From: Acidobacteriota bacterium
GTDB lineage: Bacteria > Actinomycetota > Acidimicrobiia > Acidimicrobiales > RAAP-2
NCBI GenBank assembly: GCA_018970215.1
Contig: JAGWWX010000009.1
Span: 1 to 39,763, forward strand
Direction of reading: 5' to 3'
Length of the DNA stretch: 39,763 nucleotides
How positions within the stretch are numbered: the stretch's first letter is position 1; each line of letters starts with the position of its first letter. The notes beneath the pieces were generated by a model. That model ran no database searches. It saw only the letters and a list, made by a program, of their open reading frames with translations, and was not told the DNA's origin. The position numbers and the translations under genes were made by a program. Of this stretch, positions 3,209-20,287 are shown one piece after another.

Positions 3209-3453
3209 GCTGCAAGCGGGCTGTGGTTGAAAGTCGATGCCAGCCGCGGGCAAAGCGACCCACGTAAGGCGTCTCATTGACGTTGAGCATGGCGCGGTTT
3301 AGAAGTAAGTCCTGCCTTGAACTGGTCACCGTGGCCAGATCGAGTGAAGGTGGAGTGTGCGAGCACGTTACGAGAGAGCGCGAGCTGCCGTAACCGCACG
3401 GGAAGCCTCCGCAGGCGAGTGTGGGGTCAAAGACCAGGTCAGCCGCTTGCAGC
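3209..3453 (+). ncRNA. Structured non-coding RNA, candidate raiA-type RNA, upstream of secA
   Basis: This 294-base gap has no credible gene but strong RNA structure. Bases 3209-3223 (GCTGCAAGCGGGCTG) pair with 3440-3453 (CAGCCGCTTGCAGC) in a 14-bp closing helix with a single bulged G. Inside are GATGCC/GGCGTC (about 3235-3240 with 3268-3273), the hairpin CTGGTCACCGTGGCCAG, the stem GTTACG/CGTAAC enclosing AGC-GCGA-GCT with a GNRA tetraloop, GCCT-CCGC-AGGC, and GGTC-AAA-GACC. A -10 box is placed so that transcription starts at the first paired base. In Mycobacterium, secA1 is preceded by the hibernation factor gene hpf/raiA, and the raiA RNA motif is known from Actinobacteria and Firmicutes near raiA and comFC. 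The family name is therefore inferred from position and size; the structure is seen directly. No terminator precedes secA, so it may be the processed 5' part of the secA transcript. Confidence 0.55.
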
Positions 3454-14371: not shown

Positions 14372-14878
14372 GTGGACGAACTCCGCCAGATGCGCATCCC
14401 ACCGGTTGGGGGAACGTTGCCGCGCGATGTCGTGAGTGGCGAGACCAGTCAACGTCGCGCACTGGCTCGCTGCCGGGTGGTCATGGCACCCGAAACTGCC
14501 GCTCGCGTGGCCACCAACGCCGTGAACAAGGGTGACGTGCTCGCCACAGCACGCGTCGCCGGAATCAACGCCGCAAAGAAAGCCGCCGAACTGCTCCCTA
14601 TGAGCCATCTCGTTCTGGTGGGAAACACGTATATCAACTTCGCAATCGGCGACACATACATCGATGTTGAGGCGAGCGTCGACACCAACGACCGAACTGG
14701 CGTCGAAATGGAGGCACTCACCGCTGCCTCGATCGCTGCTCTGACCATCTACGACATGTGCAAGAACTCGGACCGCACAATCACGATCGAAAATCTCGCC
14801 CTCTGGGAGAAAACTGGTGGCCGAGGTGGCACCTGGCGGCGCGGCGAGGTTACGGAAGAGCCGGAAGGCCTAGTTTGA
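14372..14878 (+). CDS. moaC: Cyclic pyranopterin monophosphate synthase MoaC
   Basis: Converts the MoaA product 3',8-cyclo-7,8-dihydro-GTP to cyclic pyranopterin monophosphate in molybdenum cofactor synthesis. The 168-residue protein retains NKGDVLATARVAGINAAKK (catalytic-loop lysine), the histidine after the first helix, TGVEMEALTAASIAALTIYDMCK with the acidic and lysine active-site residues, and a C-terminal KTGGRGGTW. Odd: the usual PLCHPL around the active-site histidine reads PMSHLV, losing the conserved Cys and Pro. The GTG start follows a -10 box by 6 bases. No other moa genes are nearby. The 3' end overlaps the convergent unknown gene by 29 bases. Confidence 0.9.
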   Translation: MDELRQMRIPPVGGTLPRDVVSGETSQRRALARCRVVMAPETAARVATNAVNKGDVLATARVAGINAAKKAAELLPMSHLVLVGNTYINFAIGDTYIDVEASVDTNDRTGVEMEALTAASIAALTIYDMCKNSDRTITIENLALWEKTGGRGGTWRRGEVTEEPEGLV

Positions 14879-15197
14879 CAAGAATTTCCGCCACTCGAGC
14901 TGTGTGAGCGGGGGTAAAACCGAGCGCACGTCCGGACGTCAGCACTATTTCAATCGCCTCGTGGCGGCGCCACCGGTTCACATCTTTGGTAAACCATACG
15001 TTGTCGTCACTCAGACCTTGTCGGGGAATCTGACCGTGCGGATAGGTCGATTCGTGGCGCACCCGAAATCCCACCACTTTTTCCACCGCGATTCTTTCTC
15101 GCCGCCCAAGGATTCGCGAGACCCCCGAGAGAACGAGGGTTGTGTTCGTCACGGTCAAAATCCGATCGTGGTACAGCGTGACAACGATGGGTGACAT
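14850..15197 (-). CDS. Small conserved-looking protein of unknown function (possible PH-like fold)
   Basis: 115 residues, ATG start with AAGGAG 6 bases upstream and a TACCCT box further upstream, so expression is well supported. The pattern of short alternating strands (VVTLYHDRILTVTNTTLVLSG), a charged middle (RRERIAVEKVVGFRVRHE), then IEIVLTSGRALGF and a final amphipathic helix (TARVAEILVKLGL) resembles bacterial PH-like/DUF proteins, which is inference only. No signal peptide or membrane span. It converges on moaC with a 29-base overlap. I do not recognise the family. Confidence 0.7.
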   Translation of the reverse strand: MSPIVVTLYHDRILTVTNTTLVLSGVSRILGRRERIAVEKVVGFRVRHESTYPHGQIPRQGLSDDNVWFTKDVNRWRRHEAIEIVLTSGRALGFTPAHTARVAEILVKLGLPALP

Positions 15198-15442: not shown

Positions 15443-17416
15443 ATGGCCTCGAAGATCAACTCACACGAAGAAAAGCGGGCCCGTCAGGGGGCGCTCGTCA
15501 GTTTTGTGTGGATGGCGCCCAACGGTGTCACGTTGAACGAGATTGCCGAGAATGTTCGTTACCCAATCCAGACGGCCACGGGGTACGCGATGCAGTACGC
15601 GTACGACACGAACATCAGCGACCCGAAGGTTCTTTCGAAGGTGCGCATGGCCGTTCATCGTGATCGCGATGACCTCGAGAAAGCCGGCATCACTATCAGT
15701 TTCGATGATGCTCTCGGAAAGTACCGCGTGGTGCCACGTGACGTGTTTGTTCCTGGACTCAGTTTGAATAGCGAAGAAAGTGCCCTTCTATTAAGTCTGC
15801 GAGCGGCCAAGGATCGACCGTTCGGTCCCAATGGACTCTTGGGCGGTTCTTTCGTGAGTCGCAGCACTACCGACTCGCAGAGTGCCGTGACTGCGGTCTT
15901 CGTACGCGCGAAGATGAGTCGTCACATCGTCGTTTTCTCGCATCGGCGCTCGGGGTCGTTTCTTTCTCTGGTGACCAACCGAAACGAGGAGCGAAAGATC
16001 GTCCCGCTGCGTTTCGTCGTAGCGAATGGACGCCAGTATGTCGTTGGATACGACATCGAGCGCGATGATATCCGGGGGTTCTTGCTCTCGCGCATTGTTG
16101 ACGTACCGAAAATGAGCAGCGAAATCCGTCTCGTCGGTGATGATGTCGTCCAGCGCGCACGTGACTGGTCCCCTCGCGAATTTGAAGAGGGCTCCTCAAT
16201 TGACGTCACCGTGAGCACCGAATTTGCCCAACGTGAGGCCAAGCTCCACCCTCGGACCTCTGCAGTGGTGGCTTCTTCTGAGGACGGCTGTTCTGAACTT
16301 CGTCTGAGTTTCGATACAGAGAGTTCGGCCATGGCGTGGCTGGTGATGAACGAGCGAAATGTCATTCGCGCGAATGGAAAGTTCAAGTCGGCAGCGAAAA
16401 ACTGGCTGAAGGAAACCAATCAGGCGACGAAAACACCTGCGCGAGGACACTCGTTCAGTGACGCCTTCGATCCGTGGTCTTCCGACGAGGCGATCAATCT
16501 CGCACTTCGTATGGCTGCAGCGGTTATCGCTGCGGGTGAACTCTCGGCCAAGGATCTTGCTTCGATGTTCTCCGTCGATGTCGACCACGTGCGAAGGGTC
16601 TTTCACGAATTGGTTATGGCACGTTCGCCTCAGGACGACACTCGCTATTTCTTACCGATCACGTTGAGCGACGACTCGAACGACGATGGTGACTACGACT
16701 ACATTGCCGAAGGTAATGCCGTTGAGATGTTCGGCGGAACTGATCCCCTCGCGTGGACAGAGGTGTTCGCTGTGAGTCTCATGCTGGAGCAGATTCAGCG
16801 CTTGGCGCACGGCACTCCCGTTGCCAAGGTTGCCGAGTCTCTCGTGGCAAAGATTCACGCCGCAACCGATGTGTCTCTGTCTGTCCTCGTACCGGAGGTA
16901 CCGTTCGGTTCTGAGATTGCCCAGAACATTCGAACGTCTGCTCTGCGGATCAAGTACCAGTCCGCGGGACAAGAACAGCCCACGTGGCGAGTGATTGCAC
17001 CCGTGGAACAGCAGTTCGTGTGTGGCGAGGCCTACCTGCGGGCGTACGAGATGGGTGATGGTGGCGCGTATAAGACCTATGCGCTCAACCGCATTTGGGA
17101 CGTGGAAGTTGCCGGTGAGTTTCCTGCGTCGCTGCCAACGGACACGGCAAGTGACTGGCTTGCGGCGCTTCTCACGACGAGCAACGAAGTCTTGATTGAG
17201 ACGAACGAAGCGGGATTGCCACTGTTCGAGAACCTCCCCGAAGTTCAAGTGGCCAAGGAACCGTCGAACTTTGGATTCATTTTGAAGATCAAGGTTGCGA
17301 ACGCGGACTTCCTCGATCGCCGCCTCGCCGCGGCCGGCAAGAACGCCCGCGTCATCGGTGACCAGGCGAACCGCGCGGGAGTGGCCTTTGCGACTGAATT
17401 AGCCAACCGCCTGTAG
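15443..17416 (+). CDS. Fused PafB-PafC-like transcriptional regulator with two WYL halves
   Basis: A 657-residue protein made of two similar halves, each a winged-helix HTH followed by a WYL domain. Half one: HTH at about 15-95 (VTLNEIAENVRY, KVRMAVHRDRDDLEKAGI), WYL near 175-230 (RNEERKIVPLRFVVANGRQYVVGYD, FLLSRIVDV). Half two: HTH at about 350-430 (GELSAKDLASMFSVDVDHVRRV), WYL near 515-575 (PTWRVIAPVEQQFVCGEAYLRAYE, TYALNRIWDVEV). This is the layout of fused PafBC, the actinobacterial activator of the RecA-independent DNA damage response, whose WYL domains sense nucleic acid such as ssDNA. The start is ATG 15443 with AAAGGGA; an upstream in-frame TTG has no ribosome site. The Pup-proteasome genes that usually neighbour PafBC are absent. 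A relaxase gene follows after 22 bases, apparently in the same operon. Confidence 0.82.
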   Translation: MASKINSHEEKRARQGALVSFVWMAPNGVTLNEIAENVRYPIQTATGYAMQYAYDTNISDPKVLSKVRMAVHRDRDDLEKAGITISFDDALGKYRVVPRDVFVPGLSLNSEESALLLSLRAAKDRPFGPNGLLGGSFVSRSTTDSQSAVTAVFVRAKMSRHIVVFSHRRSGSFLSLVTNRNEERKIVPLRFVVANGRQYVVGYDIERDDIRGFLLSRIVDVPKMSSEIRLVGDDVVQRARDWSPREFEEGSSIDVTVSTEFAQREAKLHPRTSAVVASSEDGCSELRLSFDTESSAMAWLVMNERNVIRANGKFKSAAKNWLKETNQATKTPARGHSFSDAFDPWSSDEAINLALRMAAAVIAAGELSAKDLASMFSVDVDHVRRVFHELVMARSPQDDTRYFLPITLSDDSNDDGDYDYIAEGNAVEMFGGTDPLAWTEVFAVSLMLEQIQRLAHGTPVAKVAESLVAKIHAATDVSLSVLVPEVPFGSEIAQNIRTSALRIKYQSAGQEQPTWRVIAPVEQQFVCGEAYLRAYEMGDGGAYKTYALNRIWDVEVAGEFPASLPTDTASDWLAALLTTSNEVLIETNEAGLPLFENLPEVQVAKEPSNFGFILKIKVANADFLDRRLAAAGKNARVIGDQANRAGVAFATELANRL

Positions 17417-17438
17417 GTCGACCGTTGGGCTGCGGCCC

Positions 17439-18506
17439 ATGTTCAAGCTGATTCCACGACGAAGTACCGACGTTCGCTACTTCCTTGATGATCCCGCCCG
17501 CGAGTTAGAGGGAGTACGGTCCGGCGGCCCGGGTCGCTTTCTTATTGGGGAGGGCGACCCCACGCACCGCGATGACGTGTCAGGAGTTCTACGGGGTACG
17601 AGCAAAAGCGAAGTGGTCGGTTATGACCTTGTCATCGCCGCCCCACGTCCGATTTCGGTACTCCTCGCGACGGAGCCCGATGATGTGGCGATAACCCTCG
17701 TACGTGCACACCAAGACGCGGTTCAGCGAGCTCTGTCGTATCTCCAGGAACGGGCCATTGTTGTGCGCGAGCGACACCAGGGTCGCGACGTGGAAGTCTC
17801 GGCCCCGCTCGACGCCGCCGTCGGCTTCACTCACGGCGTGAATCGCGCTGGTGAACCACACCTACACGATCATGTCCTTATTGGATCGACGTCTCGCACG
17901 GTTGGTCGGGCGTTCGATCGCCGTGTCGTGACGGCGCACCTTCCCACGGCGGATGCGCTGTATGTTGCAGATATTCGACACGCGATGACATCACACGGCA
18001 CGCCGATGTGGCGAACATTTGACGGTCGCATCCGGGTAGCGGGGGTCGACGAGGGAGTTCTAGGACTCTGGCCCGGTGTGGGTGGTCTCCGCGGTGAGAA
18101 ACGGGACTGGACCCGCGCCGCCTTGCGAGAGAAGTGGTCGTCGCAGCTGGCCGACGTTATTCCCATTCGATCCTATGAACCGCCAGAGATGAAGCGGTGG
18201 GTGAATGAACACTCACTGGGGGCTGAAATCGAACTTCGTCATTCGATTTCCCGACGACACCTTCTTGCGGCGTGGGCGCACGGCGCAACTTTTGGTGTCC
18301 CTATCGATACTTTGAACTCTCTCATGGCAACGTACTACCCGACGCTGGAGCATGACTTCGGTTTGGGTGAGTATCAGGTCGCACGTTCCGATGCGATTCC
18401 CTGGCGTCTGATTCGTGAGTATGGTCCTCGACCACTTGGCCTCGCCGACGCACGACTCTGGGTTCATCGAGTCCGAGAACGTGACGAGAGGTCGCGTTCT
18501 CGGTGA
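17439..18506 (+). CDS. Stand-alone MobF/TrwC-family relaxase domain protein
   Basis: Relaxases of this family nick a DNA strand at an origin site and stay covalently bound to its 5' end through a tyrosine. The 355 residues correspond to the TrwC relaxase domain. Candidate nucleophile is Tyr14 (DVRYFLDD). GYDLVIAAPRPISVLLA (61-77) contains the conserved Asp63, and the metal-binding histidine triad is intact as FTHGVN (His132) and PHLHDHVLI (His143, His145). The C-terminal SF1 helicase half of TrwC/TraI is missing; a short Arg-rich tail replaces it. It lies 22 bases after the WYL regulator and converges on the coupling-ATPase gene with a 43-base overlap. The active site looks functional; the DNA target is unknown. 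Confidence 0.85.
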   Translation: MFKLIPRRSTDVRYFLDDPARELEGVRSGGPGRFLIGEGDPTHRDDVSGVLRGTSKSEVVGYDLVIAAPRPISVLLATEPDDVAITLVRAHQDAVQRALSYLQERAIVVRERHQGRDVEVSAPLDAAVGFTHGVNRAGEPHLHDHVLIGSTSRTVGRAFDRRVVTAHLPTADALYVADIRHAMTSHGTPMWRTFDGRIRVAGVDEGVLGLWPGVGGLRGEKRDWTRAALREKWSSQLADVIPIRSYEPPEMKRWVNEHSLGAEIELRHSISRRHLLAAWAHGATFGVPIDTLNSLMATYYPTLEHDFGLGEYQVARSDAIPWRLIREYGPRPLGLADARLWVHRVRERDERSRSR

Positions 18507-19753
18507 TCGAGAAATCGGGGGTCACGGTGCGCCGGCGTGAGTTCAATCCAGCGAAGTTGGTTCGTCTCATCGATGCCAAGTCCAAACCCTTGTCGTCCCT
18601 TGGCGACTTGTGCAACTGTCATTACTGACTCGTGTGGTCGAGACCAATTGATGGATTGCGTGCGACCCCGCGGCGTGGTACTCCATGCCGCAATCTGCTC
18701 TCGATGCCGGCCACTGAGATCAGCAATCAATTGGAGGGTGTGTCGATCGGCGATCCCGGGGAGAATTACGGTCGTTGGGAAGAGCGACAGAAAGGCGTCG
18801 CCGCTAATCGGCCAACGTAATCGCGCTTGACTCAGATCCTGAAGACACGCCAACGTCGTGACCCCTTGACCGCCCCCCTCCGACACGATGCCGGCGAGGC
18901 CCGGCAGAGGGGCGACGTTGGCGAGCTCATCAAGTGCGAGTAGCAGCCGATGTGACTGCCGGGGGTCGTCGTAGGTCCGTTGCACGGCAGACTCGATGAG
19001 CCCGACGACGAGTGGAGCGCTGAGAGATTGTTGGCGACTTGGCGAAACAATGTGAATGTGGGAACGCTCGCTCAGCGCGCTTTCCATGTCCACCCTCGGT
19101 CGGCCTTCGAGTTGTCGAGCGGCGTCGGTCCGAAGTCCCGCGATAAGACCCGATGCCGACGACCAGATTCCCGAGAGTTCGCGTTGATCGGTCGTTAATA
19201 GCCCGTGCATCATTGCGACCGCGTGGTGGGAGTCGCCATAGTGGTGGCGCAGACATTCAAAGTGATCATGACCGCGACGACTTTCCACTGCGAGGGCGAA
19301 TGTGTGAAGTGAGTCACCACGCAGTGCGCTGGCGTGGGTCATAGCGGCGATCAGCGCACCGGATCGTTCATCCCAATGATCTTCGGATCGTCCACCTCGC
19401 AGTTGTCGCTTGGTGTCGGCCAGGCTCCGTGCAATGTGGAGGGCCCCGTCCCACGTCCTCGCGGTGTCGAGGAGTGAAAATCCAATTTTTATGATTCCCG
19501 GGAAGTCGGGAAGGGTTCCCGAGGGGTCGTACAGGAGTTGGGGCACATCGCGGCGTGCCTGAGCTACCGCGGCGAGGACGTCACCCTTGGTTGATGTCGT
19601 GATCACTGCAGTGTCGCTCATCAGGAGATTTGGAACAATAAACGATGATGTTTTCCCGCTGCGCGACGGCCCCAGAATGAGAACCGAGCGGCCGGGAGAT
19701 GTCCGTGCATCGCCCGTCGCTCCCCGACCGAGGTAGATCGAAAATTCTCTCAT
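18464..19753 (-). CDS. VirD4/TraG-type coupling ATPase lacking membrane anchors
   Basis: Type IV coupling proteins are hexameric ATPases that hand relaxase-DNA complexes to a secretion channel. From ATG 19753 (MREFSIYLGRG) the protein has 429 residues with Walker A GPSRSGKTS (28-36), STKGDVL, the actinobacterial signature DTARTWDGALHIARSL, HWDERSGALIAAMTHAS, Walker B LLLALDELANVAPLPGL and LACLQDLSQARLRW. The two N-terminal membrane spans of VirD4/TrwB are absent, and longer in-frame starts (19789, 19885) add none. The start is uncertain: no clear ribosome site precedes any candidate. It converges on the relaxase gene. No mating-pair-formation genes are nearby, so it may act with the relaxase inside the cell or with a distant channel. 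Confidence 0.82.
   Translation of the reverse strand: MREFSIYLGRGATGDARTSPGRSVLILGPSRSGKTSSFIVPNLLMSDTAVITTSTKGDVLAAVAQARRDVPQLLYDPSGTLPDFPGIIKIGFSLLDTARTWDGALHIARSLADTKRQLRGGRSEDHWDERSGALIAAMTHASALRGDSLHTFALAVESRRGHDHFECLRHHYGDSHHAVAMMHGLLTTDQRELSGIWSSASGLIAGLRTDAARQLEGRPRVDMESALSERSHIHIVSPSRQQSLSAPLVVGLIESAVQRTYDDPRQSHRLLLALDELANVAPLPGLAGIVSEGGGQGVTTLACLQDLSQARLRWPISGDAFLSLFPTTVILPGIADRHTLQLIADLSGRHREQIAAWSTTPRGRTQSINWSRPHESVMTVAQVAKGRQGFGLGIDETNQLRWIELTPAHRDPRFLDHRERDLSSRSRTR
18473..18503. repeat. 9-bp inverted repeat inside both 3' ends of the relaxase and coupling-ATPase genes
   Basis: CCGAGAACG (18473-18481) and CGTTCTCGG (18495-18503) are perfect inverted copies separated by 13 bases. 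The dyad falls in the 43-base overlap of two convergent genes and encodes the Arg/Ser-rich C-termini of both. It could be a two-way transcription end signal, although there is no T-tract, or a recognition site for the neighbouring relaxase. Confidence 0.5.
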
Positions 19754-19843
19754 AAGTACACATCGGTCGTTGCTCGAAATGCTTGACATACGGTCAAAAA
19801 AAGAGTCAACTTTATGTGTCCTTCTGCGGAGGAGGTGAACGGA

Positions 19844-19858
19844 GTGACACGCTCCTAA
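19844..19858 (+). CDS. Possible 4-codon leader ORF upstream of the histone-like gene
   Basis: GTG ACA CGC TCC TAA is preceded at ideal distance by GGAGGAGGTGA (19828-19838), among the best ribosome sites in the window. The same frame is open from ATG 19814, which would give 14 residues. The stop codon sits in the loop of the hairpin CACGCTC-CTAAAA-GAGCGTG. This is what a regulatory leader peptide would look like, but expression is unproven. Confidence 0.3.
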   Translation: MTRS

Positions 19859-19867
19859 AAGAGCGTG
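19848..19867 (+). promoter_or_regulatory. Hairpin in the histone-like gene leader
   Basis: CACGCTC and GAGCGTG form a perfect 7-bp stem with loop CTAAAA. Its 3' arm borders the segment (19864-19874) that can instead pair with 19946-19957, so the two structures may compete. No T-run follows, so it is not a standard terminator. Confidence 0.4.
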
Positions 19868-20032
19868 GACTTCGCTGCGACGCACTAGGACCGTGTACTG
19901 CGATTGGTCGCTTTACAGCCGCGAGGTTGGATTGCACATGGTCGAGTCCACGAAGTCAATGCGGGTCCGTTTGACCAAGTCGGTCGAACCCAGGTTCCAC
20001 GTTGATTCAACGTTGAGTCCCAAGGAGGGAAC

Positions 20033-20287
20033 GTGGCTGCTGCTACGAAGAAGAAGGCTGCCCCTAAGAAGGCTGCCAAGAAGACGGCTAAGAAGGCCGT
20101 GAAGAAGGCTGCCCCTAAGAAGGCTGCGAAGAAGACGGCTAAGAAGGCCGCCAAGAAGGCTGCACCGAAGAAGGCTGCTAAGAAGGCTGCTAAGAAGACG
20201 GTGAAGAAGGCTGCGAAGAAGGCTGCTCCTAAGAAGGCCGCCAAGAAGACAGCCCGCAAGGCCACGAAGAAGGCTGCTAAGAAGTAG
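20033..20287 (+). CDS. Lys/Ala-repeat histone H1-like DNA-binding protein
   Basis: 84 residues, GTG start with AAGGAGG at good distance. After VAAATKKK the whole protein consists of repeats of the type APKKAAKKTAKKA, with over 40 percent lysine and no acidic residue. This matches the C-terminal tails of actinobacterial HupB/HU and eukaryotic or chlamydial H1-like proteins but lacks the HU body, so it should bind DNA or RNA non-specifically as a disordered polycation. Lysines are almost always AAG, and the DNA shows matching internal direct repeats prone to length change. A strong terminator follows. It borders the relaxase/coupling-ATPase genes and may compact or protect DNA; that link is inferred. 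Confidence 0.85.
   Translation: MAAATKKKAAPKKAAKKTAKKAVKKAAPKKAAKKTAKKAAKKAAPKKAAKKAAKKTVKKAAKKAAPKKAAKKTARKATKKAAKK

Follow-up and report, generated by a model that had tools for sequence, protein, structure and literature searches.

The 39,763-nt stretch of DNA analysed here (the window) is contig C26 of a 1.54-Mb Acidimicrobiales genome (97.8% complete), and in it a relaxase gene starts 22 nt downstream of a gene for a PafBC-type WYL regulator. Bacterial conjugation machinery is normally attributed to plasmids or integrated elements, and the question raised by this locus is what a relaxase does in an operon-like pair with a chromosomal regulator. A first-pass annotation had placed the two genes in one operon and proposed that the regulator senses the single-stranded DNA made by the relaxase, or that the relaxase belongs to a damage response. 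Our analysis supports this wiring only partly, and brings in a component that had been missed: a T4SS, chromosomally fixed elsewhere in the same genome, goes with the relaxase.

The pafBC-relaxase-traG module

The regulator gene (pafBC, 15443..17416, + strand, with AAAGGGA directly 5′ of the ATG at 15443) encodes a natural PafB-PafC fusion of 657 aa with two WYL domains. Its identification as PafBC-like is borne out by the family profile, which gives a full-length, end-to-end match to Arthrobacter PafBC (6sj9, 2e-87) and also aligns with mycobacterial PafB and PafC. The two HTH-WYL-WCX units that characterize PafBC, whether fused or paired, are present, and most members of the family give just two WYL matches, one for each PafBC half. 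The window protein and its genome resemble the Arthrobacter and mycobacterial cases both in this twofold HTH-WYL-WCX arrangement and in having a PafBC-type recA promoter; unlike in those cases, the gene is linked to a relaxase and lies away from the pup-proteasome genes (pup is on contig C80, so that the usual linkage is not seen), and two conserved WYL arginines are missing. Mycobacterial PafBC is activated by ssDNA via defined WYL residues (PMC11804915). Six of the eight ssDNA-contact residues named in that study are retained in the window protein, but Leu stands at the equivalent of PafB R211 and Ala at that of PafC R201, one arginine being lost per WYL domain. Among 24 genus members this double loss is confined to the window and its sister species. 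With both equivalents lost, the case for ssDNA sensing is weaker for the window PafBC than for its genus relatives.

The second gene of the pair (17439..18506, + strand) encodes a 355-aa MOBF/TrwC relaxase domain protein, in agreement with the first-pass annotation: the TrwC domain is matched at 7.5e-25, and an AF2 (AlphaFold) model with a mean pLDDT of 92.9 matches TrwC-oriT complex structures over nearly 300 columns (6e-11). Sequence and predicted structure together give the trans-esterase fold of MOBF relaxases with the catalytic Tyr, Asp and three His; these residues (Tyr14, Asp63 and HxxxRxxxPHLHxH) show little or no variation between genera and families. The protein looks catalytically intact, and would be expected to nick DNA. 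MOBF relaxases of conjugation usually carry a helicase, and no match to a helicase domain was obtained in the 355 residues, so that the C-terminal helicase typical of the class is missing. The window relaxase has the fold, the catalytic Tyr and Asp and the three-His motif in common with R388 TrwC and F TraI; unlike these, it is devoid of the helicase half, chromosomal, present in a single copy and joined to pafBC in an operon-like pair. Relatives outside the order but within the same phylum are mostly relaxase-helicases of 800-1300 aa, often several per genome, and the closest plasmid relatives are distant MobF relaxases. A plasmid or viral origin of the module was considered and rejected, because only distant relatives are found there. 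A role in anti-phage defence was rejected: PADLOC gave no match for the relaxase, its matches being limited to WYL models and one weak mad8 match.

Convergent with the relaxase gene, and overlapping its 3′ end by 43 nt, lies traG (18464..19885, − strand; likely true start ATG 19753), encoding a soluble TraG/VirD4-like coupling ATPase. An N-terminal alignment of 24 species leaves about 25-30 residues between the start and Walker A, from which we conclude that TraG has no membrane anchor.

The relaxase is present in 165 of the 172 family genomes, mostly as a single copy, and in 100 of the 101 good ones. Whether other pafBC-like fusions are followed by relaxases had been posed as a check, and they are: each of the 30 genus loci checked has pafBC followed by the relaxase and a convergent traG, with pmbA/tldD/moaC and cofC/GH38 as flanks wherever these were read. 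In an independently fetched set, PafBC is encoded directly upstream of 44 of the 49 short relaxases versus none of the 31 long relaxase-helicases. Scored as short in this count are two frames (L178, L179) that GC-rich read-through has lengthened; of the five short relaxases lacking PafBC, three are truncated at a contig end. Because the species are not independent, any test of this association would be inexact; the pairing is far from chance. According to the first-pass annotation, a second, canonical pafBC beside pup together with a lack of conservation of the pair elsewhere would have spoken against its proposal; instead, the pair is conserved and pafBC is the sole WYL locus of the genome. 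In many genera and in several families the module sits at one and the same core position. The window contains no tRNA and its scanned ORFs include no integrase, so that neither the integrase nor the variable location expected of an integrative element is observed. Pairwise dN/dS values (0.08-0.18 for PafBC, 0.15-0.39 for the relaxase and 0.09-0.20 for TraG) show that all three genes alike are under purifying selection. Searches of the open-access literature turned up no paper that links a relaxase to PafBC; for relaxases in Acidimicrobiia and for T4SSs in Acidimicrobiales they gave nothing pertinent.

The 22-nt gap and regulation of the module

The gap spans exactly 17417..17438 (+ strand), and a pattern scan detected neither promoter nor terminator within it, as had been reported. 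The regulator-relaxase pair is confirmed, with two corrections: a helicase domain is missing from the relaxase, and the gap contains conserved elements, namely a 9-nt word (CGACCGTTG, 17419-17427) and a hairpin (GGGC-TGCG-GCCC, 17427-17438) reaching to the relaxase ATG. The word, CGACCG[AT]TG, is exact in 20 of 24 species, and the remaining four have one-letter variants. The hairpin follows directly after it and extends to the start codon of the relaxase or close to it, and its arms vary in sequence yet stay paired. Wobble pairs on the coding strand amount to 32 G-T versus 2 A-C, which suggests a hairpin of the mRNA; folding energies of single sequences are unexceptional (mean z −1.6), the support for the hairpin coming from covariation. 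The possibility that hairpin and 9-mer constitute an oriT was rejected, since the G-T excess favours an mRNA hairpin. The simplest reading of the gap is that translation of the relaxase may depend on ribosomes completing pafBC. Co-transcription with pafBC and the gap hairpin would then couple translation of the relaxase to that of pafBC, with the consequence that relaxase output would track the PafBC regulator.

Within the genus the gap word recurs upstream of the relaxase, traG, the T4SS operon and recA (loci including L282-L289, L140 and L142), and it is located 5′ of the VirB2 gene in many of the T4SS loci read; the copy upstream of traG (CGACCGATG, 19761..19769, − strand) is the same word, which alone occurs at about chance frequency. 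As the word by itself is about as frequent as chance predicts, it was not accepted as a regulon motif, and we treat its recurrence as a lead only.

Control at the promoter level was sought by comparison with recA. In 17 of 17 genus genomes this gene has a PafBC-type site (TGTSACA-N9-TANNNT), spaced like the motif of mycobacteria, and hence a RecA-NDp-type promoter; the copy in the window genome is weaker. Most genus recA loci (L140, L142, L145-L168) have a LexA box (CGAACA..TGTTCG) as well, as in mycobacteria. The module itself, read on both strands in 24 species, shows no PafBC-type site, and no LexA box was found there; nor was a PafBC-type site found at the T4SS loci. PafBC or LexA as controllers of the module were not retained for this reason, and the feedback loop proposed in the first-pass annotation finds no support at the promoter level.

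A T4SS at a second core locus and the proposed function of the relaxase

A minimal T4SS operon is located outside the window in the same genome (G000:C18 3442-8047, L320). It encodes VirB2-like (DUF6112/TrbC), VirB6-like (SCO6881) and SCO6880-like proteins, VirB4 and VirD4, and was also seen in the sister species (L321), in eight more genus members (L282-L289) and in other genera; contig permitting, its first gene lies next to serS (seryl-tRNA synthetase) and genes for a response regulator and sensor kinase, all identified by eye. Among 30 further genus loci, VirD4 is adjacent in 28 and the SCO6880-like gene in 29, and in genera other than that of the window the SCO6880 step was mostly unrecognized by the genus query. 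The general Pfam model of VirB4 gave no match in the window genome and partial matches in relatives, the latter being VirB4 C-terminal ATPases. A lineage profile found a VirB4-like gene in 157 of the 172 family genomes, including that of the window (G000:C18), and the initial negative was thus a problem of sensitivity. The VirB4 ATPase, VirD4, VirB6-like and pilin-like proteins expected of a T4SS are all present. Across the order, relaxase and VirB4-like gene occur together in 60 cases, one without the other in 18 and 7, and neither in 63, counts which take in ordinary mobile elements and ignore relatedness. The Streptomyces cmd and SCO6878-6881 clusters are likewise chromosomal actinobacterial sets of SCO6880/SCO6881-type genes, and a role in differentiation and antibiotic production has been reported for cmd (PMC2782261); unlike these clusters, the Acidimicrobiales operon includes VirB4-VirD4 and is found together with a relaxase.

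Taken together, we regard it as fairly probable (roughly 60%) that the relaxase, TraG and the T4SS form a conjugation-type system of DNA transfer which this Acidimicrobiales family has domesticated and inherits vertically. The relaxase and the convergent TraG would be its DNA-processing half, fixed in the chromosome, and the T4SS operon at the other core locus, including a second VirD4, its channel half. The relaxase would nick a chromosomal site and remain bound to the 5′ end, delivery or pumping of the strand would fall to the coupling ATPases, and the T4SS would move it between cells, a transfer whose occurrence and direction we infer. However, several points speak against this reading: no oriT or nic site was identified, the relaxase is without helicase, both coupling ATPases are without an obvious membrane anchor, no VirB8-like protein or cell-wall hydrolase was recognized at the loci read, the VirB4 match is missing in 9 of the 101 good genomes, and no damage-type promoter is common to the module and the T4SS loci. 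Throughout the family as sampled (172 genomes), the relaxase, both coupling ATPases and the T4SS belong to the core gene set, retained even in a 1.5-Mb genome that keeps little dispensable, a pattern more in keeping with an inbuilt system of gene exchange than with the residue of a plasmid. In this group, taking relaxases as markers of mobile elements would mislabel core genes.

One could go further and see in the system a bacterial counterpart of archaeal Ced, that is, a family-wide chromosomal machine which exchanges cellular DNA, with the relaxase translationally coupled to PafBC and the exchange tied to damage repair; we hold this extension to be tentative and rather doubtful. Ced has been described as domesticated conjugation machinery, encoded in the chromosome, that transfers cellular DNA (PMC9905601). 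The comparison concerns the way of working and is no claim of membership: unlike Ced, the Acidimicrobiales system has a bacterial T4SS with a relaxase and shows no damage induction at the promoter level, and its transfer is presumed. If the machine does move cellular DNA, it would be a native gene-exchange route parallel to Ced, and a link between damage sensing and gene exchange could be tested in a single operon.

Another possibility, which we consider unlikely, is that the relaxase and TraG have been kept for an intracellular job, such as nicking or moving single strands in repair, replication restart or chromosome processing, with the T4SS a separate protein- or DNA-handling system. The adjoining damage regulator and proposed common transcript, the soluble TraG, the loss of the relaxase helicase and the fact that the T4SS has its own VirD4 would all fit such a role. 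However, each of the two, relaxase and VirB4, is found in nearly every family genome, they occur together in the order, and the module is without a damage-type promoter. It could also be that relaxase and regulator form a feedback loop, in which ssDNA made by the relaxase activates PafBC, or PafBC induces the relaxase in a damage response. Whereas the operon-like spacing, the ssDNA activation described for mycobacterial PafBC (PMC11804915) and the PafBC-type recA promoter of the window genome agree with such a loop, the absence of PafBC-type sites and LexA boxes from the module in 24 species and the two arginines missing from the window PafBC make it improbable. Least credible, and largely refuted already, is the idea that the genes are the decaying remains of a mobilizable or conjugative element whose integrated copy happens to lie after pafBC: a relaxase with a coupling ATPase is typical of mobilizable elements and the long, often multicopy relaxase-helicases of the phylum would suit such an origin, but the core locus does not change between many genera and several families, integrase and tRNA were not found as described above, and purifying selection together with the conserved active site argues against decay.

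Surroundings of the module

Upstream of the module, between moaC and pafBC, a 115-aa protein without Pfam match is encoded (14850-15197, − strand), with conserved counterparts in some genus members (L035, L036). On the other side, a conserved structured RNA absent from Rfam (19809-19958, + strand) lies in the 5′ leader of a lysine-rich hup-like gene divergent from traG. The RNA is likewise present at L035, L073 and 21 more loci, in the genus and one other genus (G212); 18 of its 42 pairs have compensatory changes, there is a G-U bias, and a covariance model (R1) was built. The traG/hup-like intergenic region was also considered as an oriT and rejected, its conserved block being this + strand RNA, as judged from covariation and G-U bias. 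The hup-like gene (20033-20287, + strand) encodes an 84-aa lysine-rich protein that resembles only the tail of an H1/HupB-type protein. Since more distant relatives (L083, L084, L089, L101; read by eye) have a gene for an HU-like protein in the same place, the HU domain has possibly been lost in the genus. Elsewhere in the window, a raiA RNA (RF03072, 151 bits; 3211-3451, + strand) lies between a glycosyltransferase gene and secA.
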